This document shows, in pieces, positions 4,230 to 45,862 of a stretch of 64,000 nucleotides of DNA; positions within the stretch are counted from its first letter, which is position 1; each line of letters starts with the position of its first letter. A program made the position numbers and the translations under genes. Under the pieces are notes generated by a model. It ran no database searches and was not told the origin of the DNA. It saw only the letters and a list, made by a program, of their open reading frames with translations. The stretch lies in the NCBI RefSeq assembly GCF_018860385.1, contig NZ_JAHKPH010000014.1:220487-284486 (forward strand), given 5' to 3'. The stretch is from Reinekea forsetii. Lineage in GTDB: Bacteria > Pseudomonadota > Gammaproteobacteria > Pseudomonadales > Natronospirillaceae.

Positions 4230-4425
4230 TGGGCATCTGGGGCAGTATGGGCAAAGCCTTAATTCACGCCGCTTAGCCACACACCAACCCTGCCCATAGA
4301 GCATTAATTACTTGGGGCACTATCTACAAACTGGGGCAAGTGGCTACCTGTACCCTCAGAAAGCTGCACGATCTGGGCATTTATCTGCCTACTGCGTCCG
4401 TTTAACTCTTCATACTAGTGGGGCA
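4230..4425 (+). repeat. Iteron-like TGGG(G)CA repeats upstream of alpA
   Basis: Eight copies of TGGGGCA or TGGGCA, seven in the same orientation, begin at 4230, 4238, 4248, 4313, 4332, 4374 and 4419, with one inverted at 4291. The motif recurs near the integrase end of the island (17759-17847). They may be binding sites for AlpA, a replication initiator or the integrase. No gene lies in 4158-4466. Confidence 0.6.
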
Positions 4426-4466
4426 AACTCCTAAGAGAACTTAACAGATCAGTGAGGAAGCAAACG

Positions 4467-4709
4467 ATGAACCCAACCACACAATTCCCCTCAAACTCAG
4501 TACACCCAGCGCGTCAGCAGCGGATTTTGCGCTTGCCTGAGGTAAAGGCCAAAACCGGCTTTGACCGCAGCACCATTTATGCTCTGATGGCCAATGGTGA
4601 ATTTCCCCGCTCCATTCGTATTGGGGCGCGTGCCGTGGGCTGGTTAGAAAGCGATATCGATCAGTGGATTGAAACTCGCCGTATCGGTGCTGCTTATGGC
4701 CGTGGATAA
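4467..4709 (+). CDS. AlpA-family transcriptional regulator/excisionase-like protein
   Basis: An 80-residue MerR/AlpA-type winged helix protein. I chose the ATG at 4467 because GAGGAAG lies 6 bases before it; an upstream GTG at 4452 lacks such a site. The signature is clear: 'RILRLPEVKAKTGF', 'STIYALMANGEFP', then 'GWLESDIDQWIETR'. AlpA proteins of P4-like elements activate integrase expression or act as excisionases. The last bases overlap the start of the DUF927 gene, so the two form one operon. The TGGGGCA cluster lies immediately upstream and could be its control region. Confidence 0.9.
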   Translation: MNPTTQFPSNSVHPARQQRILRLPEVKAKTGFDRSTIYALMANGEFPRSIRIGARAVGWLESDIDQWIETRRIGAAYGRG

Positions 4710-5311
4710 ACCATCAGCATCAACCCCGTTACTTGCCAATGAGATGAATAACAACGCGCCAACATTACCGGCTGGTTTTGCCTATAACGCGCAAAACTGG
4801 CTGGTGATGCAACCGACAGGGCAAGATAGCCTAGTTAAAATCTGTTCTTGGCTGCAAGTGGCTGCCCGCACCCGCGATCCGCAGGGGGACAACTACGGCT
4901 ATTTATTGCACTGGTTAGACGATGACAATCGCCATCGTTACTGGGCCATGCCCGCAGAGCTATTGGCCGGAGACGGCAGCGAGTACCGCCGAATTCTACT
5001 CAGCCGAGGCATGCGGCTAAGTAACAGTGTCAAAGCGCGGCAGTTGCTCTCGCTGTTTATTCAACAGTTGGGCGAACTGGCTACACAAAAGGCCATTAGC
5101 GTGAACTGCATTGGTTGGCATCACCATGCTTATGTGCATCCGCGCCTCACCTTTTACCCAAGCGAACACAGCAACAACCCGCGCATGGTTTTGCAAACCA
5201 TGCATCCGATAGAAGGCTTTATTCAACAAGGTAGTAGCGACAGTTGGCGGCAGCACGTAGGCCGTTATTGTCTGGATAACCCGCTATTAATTGTTGGTGT
5301 CTGCTCTGCAC

Positions 5312-5363
5312 TTATGTTCAGGACGAACGGTATGTCGCGGGCGCATGGATGCGCAAGAGCGAC
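5312..5363 (+). repeat. 52-bp double-hairpin palindromic element, copy 1 (in coding frame)
   Basis: Contains two small stem-loops: GTTC-AGGAC-GAAC and GCGCAT-GG-ATGCGC. An inverted, nearly identical copy lies at 5752-5803. It is inserted in frame and would add about 18 residues just before the nucleotide-binding core. Confidence 0.8.
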
Positions 5364-5751
5364 GGCCGCACCTTTATTGCATTTATGTGGGGTGAATGGT
5401 TTTGGTTTACACCTCTATGGTGCCAGCAGTATCGGTAAAACCGCGGCGCTGTATCCGGCGTTATCGGTGTGGGGCGAGCCTAATCAATTGCGCCATAGTT
5501 GGCGCGCCACGGCCAATGGTTTAGAAGGCACAGCCTTAGCGCATAACGATGCCTTACTGGCGCTCGATGAAATGGGCGAAGTTGACCCCAAAGAGGCGGG
5601 CGATGTCGCATATATGCTTGCCAATGGTCAGGGTAAAACTCGCGCAGGCAAATACGGTGAAATGCGTTTACCTGCCCGTTGGCGTTTGGTGTTTTTATCC
5701 AATGGCGAAGTGACGCTCGAAAGCCACCTTGCTAGTATTGGCAAGCGCGTG

Positions 5752-5803
5752 GTCGTTCCTGCGCATCCATGCGCCCACGACATACCGTTCGTCCTGAACA
5801 TAA
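5752..5803 (-). repeat. 52-bp double-hairpin palindromic element, copy 2 (inverted, in coding frame)
   Basis: Reverse complement of copy 1 with about three to four differences. It also keeps the reading frame, separating 'SIGKRV' from 'KAGQQVRVID', which are contiguous in typical DUF927 proteins. Confidence 0.8.
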
Positions 5804-5833
5804 AAGCCGGGCAGCAAGTGCGCGTGATTGATC

Positions 5834-5955
5834 CCTTCTATAGATTTCTGACTGCAAGTAGGCGGCAAGCTTTTGAATCCTATGAGCTTAGTAGCCTAAG
5901 TGATTAGGATGAAAAAGTGCAGCCAACACCCTTGCAGGTAGAAAGATGACGAAGG
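5834..5955. mobile_element. 122-bp MITE-like hairpin element
   Basis: Terminal inverted repeats of about 25 bp (around 18 matches) begin CCTTCTATAG on the left and CCTTCGTCAT on the right when read inward. The centre folds into ATCCTA...CTTAG-TAGC-CTAAG...TAGGAT. It has no coding capacity and splits the DUF927 gene between the 'VID' and 'ADAG' motifs. Confidence 0.7.
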
Positions 5956-6802
5956 AGTGCCGATGCTGGTCCCTAAATGAGCGTGTTTAACCATAGCCAC
6001 GGTATGAACGCCGCCGATTTAGCCGATCACCTAAAACAGCAAAGTCGCCAACATTACGGCAGCTTGGTCTTGGACTGGTTACGGTATTTAACGCAGCACA
6101 GCGCGCAGGTGCGACCCGTTTTCCAAAACGTACGCCAACGTTTTTTAGCCAGCTTACCCACTGAGGCTGACGGTCAAGTGCGCCGAGTCGCCGAAAAATT
6201 TGCTTTACTGGCCAGTGCAGGGTTGTTAGCCATTCAAGCCAAGGTACTTGATTGGCCAACCCAAAGTGTCGAAGCTGCCTGTTTAAGCCAGCTAAACCAA
6301 TGGATACTTGCCCGCGGTGGTGTGGCCGCCAATGAAGACCAACAAGCCATCCGCCAAGTACGCAGCTTTATTGAGCAACATGGCGAAAGCCGTTTTACAC
6401 CTAAATAAACCGGTTACAGCAGCCAAGTACGCCAACGCGCGGGTTGGTTTGATTCTACAGGCTCACAAACCCTCTACCTGTTTTACCCAACCGGTTGGCG
6501 TGAAGCCACCGAAGGCCTAAGCCCAGATCGCGCCGCCAAAGCACTGATGGTTGCAGGCTACCTAATCCCCGATGGCAACCGACCACAGCGTAAAGTCAGC
6601 CTGCCCGACAACACCCAACCACGAATGTACTGCGTGAAAGGCAACATCTTAGATGACTAAAAAGGCGATAAATCCTGTGTGGGCTTGTCGCCTTGCAGTG
6701 TACCGGCAGTAAACATCCGGACTGGGCGAGGTTCAAAGTCTAACGCGGACAATACCGCTAGTGTACTGGTTGTGTACTTAGCTATTCGATACAGCATGCT
6801 GA

Positions 6803-42447: not shown

Positions 42448-43200
42448 ATGTGCATATTTGATGATGGAATGTACAAAAAGATGCCACTTGATCGCCTAAG
42501 CACCTTATTCCGACAAGCTCACTTCAGCATCGCCAACCCTCCCCTAAACCTATCAGCGCCGATGTTAGTGCTTTCTGAGGCTCAATCAGGACACATCGAG
42601 ATTCGCTATCAGCGCAGCGCGCAAAATAGCAATAATGATCCTCTCGCTATATGCATAGATTTTGGCGGAGAGCAAAGTGCGCTGTTTCAAGCCATTCCTG
42701 ATGCAATCAGAATGAATTTGAATCCGCAACACGCAGCATGGGCGGTGGCACAAACGGTCTTAACCGAACTCAAAACACCTCGATGTGGCGGTCCTATTAT
42801 GTTGGAACGGCTGGTCGAAGTGTTGATGATATACCTGCTTCGGGATGCCATAGAATTTGGGGCTCAACAGACGGGCATGTTATTAGGGCTGGCCGATCCT
42901 CAATTAAAGCATGCATTAGTTGCTGTGCATGACTCCCCAGACCACCCTTGGACCGTAGATGAGTTGGCACATCAAAGTGGCGTTTCTAGAACCGTTTTTT
43001 ATAAACGTTTTAATGAAAAAGTAGGCTGCTCCCCTTCTCACTACCTCCGCCAATGGCGACTAACTTTAGCCAGAAGCCAACTGCTTAAAGGTCATCGAAT
43101 TAGCCAAGTTGCAAAGTCAATTGGGTATCAATCTAACGAAGGATTCTCACGGGCGTTCCACCAGCATTTTGGGGAATGGCCGAGTGAGGTGGGGGAGTGA
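42448..43200 (+). CDS. AraC-family transcriptional regulator
   Basis: A 250-residue regulator. The N-terminal domain is of the cupin-6 type common in AraC proteins next to peroxiredoxin or reductase genes ('LSTLFRQAHFSIANPPLNLS'). Two helix-turn-helix motifs occupy the C-terminus: 'WTVDELAHQSGVSRTVFYKR' and 'RISQVAKSIGYQSNEGFSRA'. The start could be 42448, 42469 or 42481; the last (MPLDRLS) fits homologues best. Divergent arrangement suggests it controls the adjacent peroxiredoxin-like gene. Confidence 0.9.
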   Translation: MCIFDDGMYKKMPLDRLSTLFRQAHFSIANPPLNLSAPMLVLSEAQSGHIEIRYQRSAQNSNNDPLAICIDFGGEQSALFQAIPDAIRMNLNPQHAAWAVAQTVLTELKTPRCGGPIMLERLVEVLMIYLLRDAIEFGAQQTGMLLGLADPQLKHALVAVHDSPDHPWTVDELAHQSGVSRTVFYKRFNEKVGCSPSHYLRQWRLTLARSQLLKGHRISQVAKSIGYQSNEGFSRAFHQHFGEWPSEVGE

Positions 43201-43205
43201 GGGAT

Positions 43206-43449
43206 TTTGGCTGCGGGCTTCGGGCTGCGGGTAAGGTCACAACAGGGGAACAGTCGCGTCTTCGCTTTGCTGCGAACACTCCTACCTGGGTACTAGCCCT
43301 GTAGGAGTGTCCGAAACATCGTGAGGTGTGAGTGTTTTTGGCTGCGGGCTGCGGGTAAGGTCAAAACACCGGAACAGTCGCGTCTTCGCTTTGCTGCGAA
43401 CACTCCTACCTTGGGTGCTAGCCCTGTAGGAGTGTCCGAAACATCGTGG
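43206..43449. repeat. Two tandem copies of a 124-bp palindromic repeat unit
   Basis: The period is 124 bases (the word CAGTCGCGTC starts at 43251 and 43375). Each unit begins TTGGCTGCGGGCT and contains the perfect stem ACACTCCTAC...GTAGGAGTGT (43277-43310 in copy 1), ending CCGAAACATCGTG. It resembles REP/BIME arrays. The connecting phrase CTGCGGGTAAGGTCAAAA recurs at 45247 and 45475. Confidence 0.85.
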
Positions 43450-43515
43450 AGGCGCGACAATCATTTATGCATTTACTTGCAGCTTGAAGCTAAAAACTTG
43501 CAGCTTTCCAAAACC

Positions 43516-44418
43516 TTAAGGCACTGGGTGACCGTCTGAAGCGGTCCAAATTTCGAACCAGGTGTGGCGGTCTATCTTAATGTTTAACGCTTCGCTTAAG
43601 CCGTTTATTCGGCTTATGTTGTTGGTTCCTGCTACCGGCATAATATTAGCTGGATGTGCTAACAACCAAGCTATCGCGACTAAATCTACACGCGTGTTTT
43701 GAGCTTCAGCAACACGTGATAACAACGGCATTACCCGCTGTGCAGCGGCACTATTGCCAAATATTTCACCACCAGCTAATGGCGACCATGCCATGATTTT
43801 TATACCGTCATTTTGTAACGCCGATACATCACCGTTTCTGAAAGGTTCTTTCGCCAGAACGTTTATTTCGATTTGGTTCAGCACCAATTTATGGTGCATA
43901 TTATTTTGTAACCAACGCCAATCTTCAGGCTGAAAATTAGAAACGCCAATAGTTTTGACCTTGCCTGAATCAATCAATAAATCTAACGCCCGACCAGTTT
44001 TTTCTGCATCCATGAAAGGGTCAGGGCGATGCAAAAGCAGTGTATCTACAACATCGGTTTGCAACAGACGCAAAGATTCCGTAACACTTTTTTCAATGTA
44101 CTCTGGCGACGTATCGTAAAACCCAACATTGCGCTCAGGAAACTTATCGGTGTTCATGCAGATATCGCATTTAGTCACTATTTCCATTTGATCTCTAAGT
44201 GACTTGTTTTCTGCGAGCGCCAATCCAAATAGCTTTTCGCATTCGTGATTACCATAAATATCGGCATGATCAATTGTAGTGATGCCTTCCGCCAATACGG
44301 CATCAATTTTTGCACGTACGTTCTTAATGCTGGTATCCGAATCATCAGCCAAACGCCAAGCGCCATAGATAAGGCGACTTAGACTCACCGAAGAATTTGG
44401 CAACGTAATTCTTTGCAT
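43516..44418 (-). CDS. Aldo/keto reductase, YdhF-like
   Basis: A 300-residue (beta/alpha)8-barrel oxidoreductase using NADPH. The catalytic residues are Asp ('TTIDHADIYGNHECE'), Tyr in the same motif, Lys ('VTKCDICM') and His ('LLLHRPDPFMD'). The cofactor region 'IGVSNFQPEDWRWL' and 'IMAWSPLAGGEIFG' are standard. Similarity to the YdhF group is strong; the physiological substrate is unknown. Monocistronic. Confidence 0.93.
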   Translation of the reverse strand: MQRITLPNSSVSLSRLIYGAWRLADDSDTSIKNVRAKIDAVLAEGITTIDHADIYGNHECEKLFGLALAENKSLRDQMEIVTKCDICMNTDKFPERNVGFYDTSPEYIEKSVTESLRLLQTDVVDTLLLHRPDPFMDAEKTGRALDLLIDSGKVKTIGVSNFQPEDWRWLQNNMHHKLVLNQIEINVLAKEPFRNGDVSALQNDGIKIMAWSPLAGGEIFGNSAAAQRVMPLLSRVAEAQNTRVDLVAIAWLLAHPANIMPVAGTNNISRINGLSEALNIKIDRHTWFEIWTASDGHPVP

Positions 44419-44576
44419 AACACACCTTTAAACCCTAAAAATTAAGGTAACTGTAACGCTACGGCGGCCAATAGCAACCAACAACCACCTGAAAACTCGC
44501 ACTTTGGTGCGAACCGCAAACAAGCCAACCAAACTGAAAACTGTTAAACTGACAAAAAACCAATAGGAACCCAACT

Positions 44577-44993
44577 TTGTTGTATATCTCGAATAACGTC
44601 AGCCTCAGTAGCGACGAAATAGAGCTAAACGCCATCCGCGCACAAGGCGCTGGCGGGCAAAATGTCAACAAAGTTTCATCTGCCATACACCTGCGCTTCA
44701 ACATACACGCATCTTCACTGCCCTACTTTTACAAAGAACGCCTACTTGCCTTAAAAGACAGCCGCATCACAGCAGATGGCATCGTCATCATCAAAGCCCA
44801 ACAACACCGGACCCAAGAAAAAAACCGAACAGACGCGCTAGAACGCCTAAAAACCCTCATCCTAGAAGCCACCGTAGTGCAGAAAACTCGCAGACCCACC
44901 AAACCTAGCCGTAATTCGCAAAAGCGCCGAATGGATAAGAAAACCAAACACAGTCGGACAAAGGCTTTGAGGGGCAGGGTTAAGGACGGGTAA
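44577..44993 (+). CDS. arfB: Alternative ribosome-rescue factor ArfB (YaeJ)
   Basis: A 138-residue peptidyl-tRNA hydrolase that rescues stalled non-stop ribosomes. The GGQ catalytic motif is at residues 26-28 within 'IRAQGAGGQNVNKVSSAIHL'. The basic C-terminal tail that enters the mRNA channel ('KTRRPTKPSRNSQKRR', 'KALRGRVKDG') is complete. It begins with TTG (44577), with AGGAA about 10 bases upstream; homologues also start two residues before 'ISNNV'. The TTG start implies low expression. Confidence 0.95.
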   Translation: MLYISNNVSLSSDEIELNAIRAQGAGGQNVNKVSSAIHLRFNIHASSLPYFYKERLLALKDSRITADGIVIIKAQQHRTQEKNRTDALERLKTLILEATVVQKTRRPTKPSRNSQKRRMDKKTKHSRTKALRGRVKDG

Positions 44994-45059
44994 AAAACAA
45001 CGGATGTTGTTTTTTTAAGCTGCCAGTTTTTAGCTGCAAGCTGCAAGTGAAGTGCAAAA

Positions 45060-45700
45060 AAACATCGCGGCTTCGCTTTGCTTCGCGCGCTTCTACTTGG
45101 GTGTGGCGTTGACGGTTAGCTTTGGCGGTGGGTTGCGCTGGAGCGGGCATCTGAGCCATGGCTGGCGAAGTTTAGCGGTGCAGGATGAACGAACAGCGAC
45201 CCGCGGAAGTGGAGCGCGCCGCCAATGCGGGTTTAATCTGTTTAAGGCTGCGGGTAAGGTCAAAAGATGAAAACAATCGCGGCTTTGCTTTGCTTCGCGC
45301 GCTTCTACTTGGTTATAGCGTTGAGGGCTAGCTTTGGCGGTGGGTTGCGCTGGAGCGGGCATCTGAGCCATGGATGGCGAAGTTTAGCGGTGCAAGATGC
45401 ACGAACAGCGACCCGCGGAAGTGGAACACGCTGCCGAAGCGGGTTTAACCTGTTTCAGGCTGCGGCATAGGGCTGCGGGTAAGTTCAAAAGATGAAAGCA
45501 ATCGGGTCTTTGCTTTAAGTGCTCAGGCTTTGAAGTTGGAGACTAGCTTTGGCAGTGGGTTTCACTGGAGCGGGCATCTGAGCCATGGATGGCGAAGTTT
45601 AGCGGTGCAGGATGCACGAACAGCGACCCGCGGAAGTGGAACACGCTGTCGAAGCGGGTTTAACCTGTTTAGGGCTGCGGGCTTCGAGTAAGGTCAAAAC
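45060..45700. repeat. Three tandem copies of a ~213-bp double-hairpin repeat unit
   Basis: GAGCGGGCATCTGAGCCATG occurs at 45141, 45353 and 45568, giving periods of 212 and 215. Each unit carries the stems GCCAT-GG-ATGGC (altered in copy 1) and GTGCA-GGA-TGCAC, then ACAGCGACCCGCGGAAGTGG. A linker with the CTTCGCTTTGC word is shared with the 43206-43449 array. The open frames inside are accidental. Confidence 0.88.
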
Positions 45701-45862
45701 ATTAGAGCATTCGCGTCTTCGCTTTGCTTCGAGAGTTCCAACCGAGAACCCTTAATACTTACCGCTTTAAAATGTTCCTCACGTTTTCAGCCAGTTTCTG
45801 TATTTTGGTAAAATTGCTTCTATACTGAAAAAACAGCAATTTATCGAGTAGGTTGACAGAGT

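Follow-up and report, generated by a model that had tools for sequence, protein, structure and literature searches.

Two palindromic repeats in a Reinekea forsetii DUF927 gene: probable copies of a dispersed 51-nt element and predicted CsrA/RsmA ligand

The DNA analysed here is a stretch of 64,000 nt from Reinekea forsetii (assembly GCF_018860385.1, contig NZ_JAHKPH010000014.1, positions 220,487 to 284,486), called the window. It contains two short palindromic repeats that are inserted in opposite orientation into one gene of the DUF927 type. On balance, we read each of them as one copy of a dispersed and structured element of 51 nt, which is predicted to act as RNA and to serve as a module for one CsrA/RsmA dimer. 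The two copies and their hairpins are as follows:

5313–5363, + strand: copy 1 of the 51-nt paired-hairpin element, at DUF927 site 1 (insertion relative to homologues; model score 82.7 bits)
5316–5328, + strand: hairpin 1 of copy 1, GTTC-AGGAC-GAAC, with GGA in the loop
5334–5363, + strand: outer stem GTCG/CGAC around hairpin 2 of copy 1
5341–5354, + strand: hairpin 2 of copy 1, GCGCA-TGGA-TGCGC, within the outer stem
5752–5802, − strand: copy 2, the element in opposite orientation, at DUF927 site 2 (insertion relative to homologues; model score 82.2 bits)
5787–5799, − strand: hairpin 1 of copy 2
5752–5781, − strand: outer stem of copy 2 around hairpin 2 (5761–5774)

A preliminary description had proposed two near-identical 52-bp elements (5312–5363 and 5752–5803) lying in opposite orientation in one reading frame, each with two stem-loops and each adding about 18 residues. 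The elements, their orientation and both stem-loops stand, with the outer stem GTCG/CGAC as an additional feature. The copies are identical at 48 of 51 positions and differ at three. The length and edges had to be revised: aligned to element-free homologues, each insert measures 51 rather than 52 nt, and it adds 17 codons while keeping the frame. When 14 of the 41 homologous loci are aligned with the window at the DNA level, the insertion points lie between ACT and GGCCGC (copy 1) and between GCGCG and TAAAAGC (copy 2). The exact edge of copy 2 may be off by 2 nt, as the element and its target share the letters TA. A repeat search of the window returned inverted-repeat arms at 5301–5363 and 5752–5814 that are 89% complementary. 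The sequence GTTCAGGACGAACGGTATGTCG is present twice in the window with no mismatch against an expectation of 0 in 100 shuffles, and chance was rejected as the source of the pair.

Each unit consists of hairpin 1, a spacer, and hairpin 2 enclosed by the outer stem. The eight seed copies (seven distinct rows) show a compensatory change in each of the three helices, with 100% of the alignment cells paired. In a larger alignment of 82 units from 51 loci (75 distinct rows; L098, L102, L108, L110, L113 and L115–L117 were left out as overlapping or weak), 97.1% of the cells are paired and 10 of the 13 pairs are changed on both sides. The covariation score of the 75 distinct rows is 0.447, compared with 0.130 for shuffled and at most 0.102 for slid alignments. 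The folds predicted for the single units that we tried agree with the three-helix layout.

Among 150 distinct units, GGA is found in loop 1 of 145, in loop 2 of 140 and in both loops of 136, and the GGA-to-GGA distance is 21–23 nt in 134 and 24 nt in one of the 135 units in which it could be measured; since the models reward GGA loops and the spacing was sought in fixed windows, both figures arise partly by construction. The frequent loops are AGGAT, AGGGAT, ATGGAT and AAGGAT. Loop 2 is ATGGAT in 83 of the 150 units, and loop 1 is more often AGGAT (33) or AGGGAT (32). The unit length is 51 nt in 85, 50 nt in 22 and 52 nt in 21 units. According to an excerpt of the review PMC7652899, CsrA/RsmE recognises hairpins whose loop is an ANGGAN hexaloop; the excerpt gives RUACARGGAUGU as the consensus from systematic evolution of ligands by exponential enrichment (SELEX), and states that a CsrA dimer bridges sites 10–63 nt apart with an optimum above 18. 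AGGGAT, ATGGAT, AAGGAT and ACGGAT loops at 21–24 nt closely fit the ligand as described in that excerpt, and the two GGA loops fall within the 10–63 nt range, again partly by model construction. Many of the hairpin-1 loops, AGGAT or AGGAC, have five bases, in contrast to the ANGGAN hexaloop. From these features, we infer that the unit has the shape of a dual CsrA/RsmA site, and binding of CsrA is predicted.

The window copies are the only two units that the two element models, R1 and R2, recognise in the source genome. The hairpin-1 pattern occurs at three places in this genome when up to two mismatches are allowed; the third place (C12:504294, two mismatches) is not recognised by either model. 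The same pattern matches two others of 22 genomes of the family (three places) and three others of 369 genomes of the class (one place each), and five of these six non-source contexts, inspected by eye, are unlike the element. BLAST of the element against plasmid and phage sequences gave no match, and viral contigs held no exact match to two patterns. Further copies, for which a search had been suggested, are missing from the source genome by R1 and R2 and are numerous in other genomes. R1 was run on 38 genomes (the source and those behind the DUF927 loci, with L013 left aside; E ≤ 0.01), and 10 of these match, source included, among them Neiella holothuriorum with 25 matches, Colwellia chukchiensis with 11 and Marinobacterium lacunae with 5. 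R2 matches 66 of the 369 genomes of the class at E ≤ 1e-5, source included, and 32 of 398 genomes of the phylum at E ≤ 1e-6; 15 of the latter lie within the class (source included) and 17 in one family outside it. Counts per genome cover at most 16 scored candidates in the 369-genome scan and at most 14 in the 398-genome scan. The class was taken to be Gammaproteobacteria from the relatives of the DUF927 gene and from window genes, such as those for oligopeptidase A and Xaa-Pro aminopeptidase, whose best-scoring models were originally built on enterobacterial proteins.

Some units stand in arrays. Our sample comprises 125 array rows (56 + 69), made from the best-scoring loci and 60 listed places in roughly rank order; it is non-random, and several arrays come from the same genomes. 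The set of 69 used 78 of 79 listed matches, with the weak, overlapping L211 match left out. Two or more adjoining matches are present in 17 of the 125 arrays. Head-to-tail arrays without spacer hold 3–7 units: seven units of 52–56 nt in Neiella (C2), three of 51 nt in Colwellia (C43), and four of 50 nt plus a shorter fifth in Colwellia (C12). Adjoining units thus give independent support for the unit boundaries. We also observed arrays of 3–7 units behind terminators at L106 (1311–1550), L095 (1399–1551), L100 (11–398) and L104 (1501–1864), and remnants of hairpin 1 at the far end of some such arrays.

Subfamilies were told apart by their first letters, and subfamily A (TATG..GGTATG) is that of the window itself. 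In this subfamily, the first base of 37 out of 54 arrays is no more than 3 nt away from the T-tract of a hairpin-bearing intrinsic terminator. Random positions in the same loci fall at a terminator T-tract in 129 of 20000 cases, and the opposite flank does so in 0 of 53. Six of the remaining 17 rows are DUF927 copies, and in at least three others (L092, L144, L190) the preceding hairpin has no more than three T. Since subfamily A starts at the T-tract, the strand that carries GGA is that of the terminated transcript in those 37 arrays. Ten arrays were unclassified, and three of the nine with enough flank lie behind terminators.

Because the GGA loops and their spacing fit the review and the precedents of TwoAYGGAY RNA and the rRNA operons, the unit most likely works as RNA, as one predicted CsrA-dimer site. 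For a copy behind a terminator, the RNA formed by read-through would carry a paired GGA-hairpin ligand for one CsrA/RsmA dimer. Arrays could offer many CsrA sites, acting as decoys or as CsrA sites at 3′ ends. Several observations weigh against this reading. The conservation of loops and spacing is partly built in by the GGA-loop seeds and fixed position windows. The 82-unit alignment was fitted to the structure model and hence favours structure. The minimum-energy fold of a seven-unit array consists of long cross-unit helices (z −7.6) and not of separate hairpins. Subfamilies B, C and D are rarely found at a T-tract with a hairpin (8 of 61; B/D 4 of 32, C 4 of 29). Copies inside genes lie in sense (DUF927 site 1, alr, hsdM) as well as antisense (DUF927 sites 2 and 3, msrB), so that not all of them could act on the host mRNA.

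The element runs from TATG to CGAC without terminal inverted repeats. At DUF927 sites 1 and 3 the 51-nt insertion is exact and the target is not duplicated; site 2 is ambiguous by 2 nt. A T immediately precedes the unit in 107 of 124 arrays. These properties, with the hairpins and strand-specific insertion, would also suit a DNA element like the repetitive extragenic palindromes (REP), in which a hairpin pair is moved single-stranded and in trans by a Y1 transposase or REP-associated tyrosine transposase (RAYT) of the IS200/IS605 type that recognises the GGA loops. We regard this as unlikely. Y1_Tnp is present in five of the nine other carriers tested, yet it is missing from the source genome (assemblies may be incomplete) and from four carriers: Neiella with its 25 matches, Marinobacterium lacunae, a Paraglaciecola metagenome-assembled genome (MAG) and Thalassotalea (no match in G000, G391, G403, G404 and G406). 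It is also present in seven of ten element-free genomes, one of which has nine matches, and the flanks share by eye no tetranucleotide, only a T. Absence from the richest carrier and the source, together with presence in element-free genomes, means that the usual REP route is not supported. A link of the Y1 transposase to the element likewise lacks support in these genomes, and no transposase could be assigned to the element with Y1_Tnp as the family tested in the source and nine other carriers. The element most likely spread by an orientation-specific route that favours T-rich single strands; insertion would usually follow a T and target T-rich DNA that is single-stranded or nascent, or else be RNA-derived.

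A purely structural role at 3′ ends, independent of CsrA, was also weighed. The unit would then reinforce terminators as a structure for 3′-end processing or for stopping exonucleases, in keeping with its place on the transcript strand immediately after the terminator and with the stems predicted for single units. We consider this improbable, as it leaves unexplained both the GGA in the two loops at a near-fixed distance and the copies inside genes.

Copies inside genes were the subject of the preliminary description, which compared them with the in-frame spread of Rickettsia palindromic elements (RPEs) within coding sequences. In-frame spread is not supported as the main habit of the element: in-frame genic copies were recognised in 9 of the 125 array rows, six of them in DUF927 (not every row is annotated), and subfamily A sits mainly behind terminators. 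Copies in functional genes, which the description had suggested looking for, do occur as far as can be judged from sequence: alr, hsdM, msrB and the DUF927 gene of Methylophaga sulfidovorans hold in-frame copies and are apparently intact. The alr gene of G042, the only alr match in that genome, encodes 384 residues and contains a 51-nt insert. A species of the same genus (G298) has an alr of 367 residues without insert; identity is 93%, or 89% in tblastn, which includes the gap. In a third species of this genus (G190; L169 1501–2688), 48 extra nucleotides nested in the element bring another GGA hairpin, and the frame of 396 residues is intact. The insert sits between the N- and C-terminal Pfam domains, and the best solved relative lacks 16 residues at this position. 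The in-frame copy in hsdM of an uncultured Marinomonas genome corresponds to 17 residues missing from 3lkd and 14 missing from 7vru. An in-frame antisense copy in msrB of G251 corresponds to 17 residues missing from 2k8d. At L150, a copy lies at the beginning of a DNA glycosylase-like frame whose start codon is not established. A 50-nt copy splits a TOTE primase-helicase gene into two frames, and L228 appears by eye to hold a second frame-splitting copy.

Selfish DNA that spreads in frame through coding genes, with its RNA structure as a by-product, would account for alr, hsdM, msrB and the three DUF927 sites, where copies lie in frame. The window copies are moreover open in five of six frames, those of alr and msrB in six and that of hsdM in four. 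We give this explanation little credence. Subfamily A prefers terminators, only a small part of the arrays in the sample could be recognised as genic, the confirmed 50-nt copy in a gene shifts the frame, and no common peptide emerges, since the copies are read in several frames and on either strand. The in-frame state is consistent with a unit length of 51 nt (3 × 17) plus selection, and the 50-nt TOTE copy does shift the frame. A genic copy would survive where its length is divisible by three and the protein can accommodate some 17 added residues, as in alr between the two Pfam domains.

The DUF927 gene of the window and its surroundings show the following features:

4669–5907, + strand: N-terminal part of the host open reading frame (ORF), DUF927 (PF06048, E 4.2e-72), broken
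5831–5953, + strand: third insertion, an unrelated V_AS5-like repeat (RF02818, 24.2 bits, E 0.038, far under the cut-off of 96)
5977–6408, + strand: C-terminal remainder of the DUF927-type helicase in a different frame (weak match to NF047345)
4452–4709, + strand: AlpA-type regulator (PF05930) adjoining the DUF927 gene

The host had been described as a replication gene. It is a DUF927 gene, but one in which the V_AS5-like repeat terminates the frame at 5907 and leaves the C-terminal part in another frame. As this gene has already decayed, the window copies are probably passengers in it.

Relatives of this gene were found at 41 loci, mostly with 84–92% identity over nearly the full query, in Marinomonas, Thalassotalea, Methylophaga, Alteromonas, Colwellia and other genera. 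Homologues had been said to be contiguous at both insertion sites, and this is correct: 28 of the 41 loci span both sites without the two segments and have 34–35 residues fewer than the window (tblastn). L032 and L033 have 58 gap positions, made up of both segments and an insertion of their own (tblastn). The remaining loci have partial coverage, are distant, or carry a copy. The Paraglaciecola MAG (L024) has copy 1 alone and an uncultured Marinomonas (L004) copy 2 alone, each at the same site as the window, and a deletion in Alteromonas sp. BMJM2 (L038) ends within an apparent remnant of copy 2. A third site, near the C-terminus and antisense, is occupied in Pseudoalteromonas sp. S16_S37 (L083/L090) and Methylophaga sulfidovorans (L094), where the DUF927 frame of 585 residues is open despite the copy. 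L004 lacks the DUF927 C-terminus, and in L024 an upstream indel of 16 nt shifts the frame; the genes that carry the element at site 1 or 2 are thus broken, so that their in-frame state proves little. The proposal of a mobile or copied repeat is upheld by the absence of the element from close homologues, the single copies at the same sites, the third site and the many genomes. A local inverted duplication in one decaying gene, without wider meaning, would suit the broken gene and the two copies recognised in the source genome, and is refuted by the same-site single copies in other species and the many related units dispersed elsewhere.

Some further features of these loci were noted. The V_AS5-like repeat is also present in L036 and L038. 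The same 16-nt frame-shifting indel, at about residue 57 of DUF927, is seen in aligned L024, L027, L032, L033 and L038, and L029 shares it as judged from the tblastn break; this suggests a shared frameshift or a recoding site. L032 and L033 carry a 72-nt insertion directly after the DEMGE motif, a fourth place in the DUF927 gene, with a stop at its edge. By eye, it has hairpins with GGA loops on the reverse strand, and it gave no match to R1. Window positions 6134–6700, which cover the last DUF927 part and the region downstream with no listed gene, are about 90% identical to six Providencia plasmid records; 6700 is the end of the query.

The source genome holds other repeats. GCGCATGGATGCGC occurs at 27 places with at most one mismatch (one place for the reversed control), two of which are the window copies. 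The other 25 were set aside, being by eye another repeat family with the same hairpin 2 and without matches to the element models. This family (L055–L081) has GCCATGGATGGC..GCGCATGGATGCGC paired hairpins inside a long outer stem and is often tandem; one of its places is cut by a contig end. Its single match to RF01731, at L066, scores 32.6 bits, under the cut-off of 43. A cluster of direct and inverted repeats of 37–196 nt, of the GGCTGCGGG type, lies at 43173–45747 of the window.

The Csr/Rsm system is a master regulator in gammaproteobacteria, and to our knowledge the origin of its sponge RNAs has not been established. A dispersed repeat that is a paired GGA-hairpin site, targets terminators and stands in arrays would be one possible origin of such RNAs and would predict many unmapped contacts of CsrA. 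A tentative extension, of which we are less sure than of the RNA module itself, is that the element may be a mobile CsrA-ligand module, selfish or domesticated, each unit of which would make up a whole site for one CsrA/RsmA dimer; it would reach the 3′ ends of transcription units through insertion at intrinsic terminators, multiply there into CsrB-like arrays and sometimes enter important proteins in frame. If true, such a module would give bacteria a route to CsrA decoys and sites by transposition. Comparable palindromes in genes are, as far as we know, described mainly from Rickettsiales, and alr, which is empty, filled, or filled and enlarged in three species of one genus, makes the tolerance of palindromic DNA directly testable.

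A weak negative comes from the open-access literature, where titles and the beginnings of abstracts yielded no description of the element; nor did the portions consulted of PMC4383904, PMC9788540 and PMC11882849. No Rfam model matched a 51-nt unit in window positions 4400–6800 or the 24 loci with units, and this includes RF01731, the TwoAYGGAY RNA. That RNA resembles the element in its two hairpins. Its loops are of the (A)YGGAY form; in the element, ATGGAT is the loop-2 sequence of 83 of the 150 units, and loop 1 is more often AGGAT or AGGGAT. Binding of CsrA has been proposed for it as a prediction (excerpt of PMC4333381), and it is listed for the human gut, gammaproteobacteria and Clostridiales (excerpt of PMC2864571). 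Unlike the element, the RF01731 model has 168 positions and an external stem. It matches two places beside units in L160, with 44.1 and 39.2 bits (cut-off 43).

RPEs share with the element the insertion of short palindromic repeats in frame into unrelated genes that have repeat-free relatives. They are described in an excerpt of PMC10969869 as about 150 bp long, located in ORFs and encoding a conserved peptide. The element is about 51 nt long, conserves a GGA-loop structure, forms arrays and prefers terminators. The likeness drawn in the preliminary description thus extends to in-frame insertion in ORFs and not to length or peptide; within genes, the element behaves like an RPE but is not one. 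REP sequences, REP doublets forming hairpins (REPINs) and miniature inverted-repeat transposable elements (MITEs) are likewise dispersed short hairpin repeats. The element differs from REP/RAYT systems in that no Y1 transposase was found in Neiella, the carrier with most matches, and from MITEs of DDE transposases in having no terminal inverted repeats and no duplication at DUF927 sites 1 and 3. Insertion behind terminators is a habit of group IIC introns.

The sponge RNAs CsrB/CsrC and RsmX/Y/Z are single small RNA genes with their own promoters. They resemble the element in their repeated GGA-loop hairpins, the largest arrays here having seven units and up to 14 hairpins. In its arrays, the element would behave like a CsrB repeat. 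In contrast to these RNAs, the element is dispersed at many sites, behind the terminators of other genes or in ORFs. In Escherichia coli, rrA, rrB and rrF, which lie behind the first terminators of rRNA operons, interact with CsrA in vitro according to an excerpt of PMC8144298. As described there, they resemble the element, by description only, in being short read-through RNA behind a first terminator.
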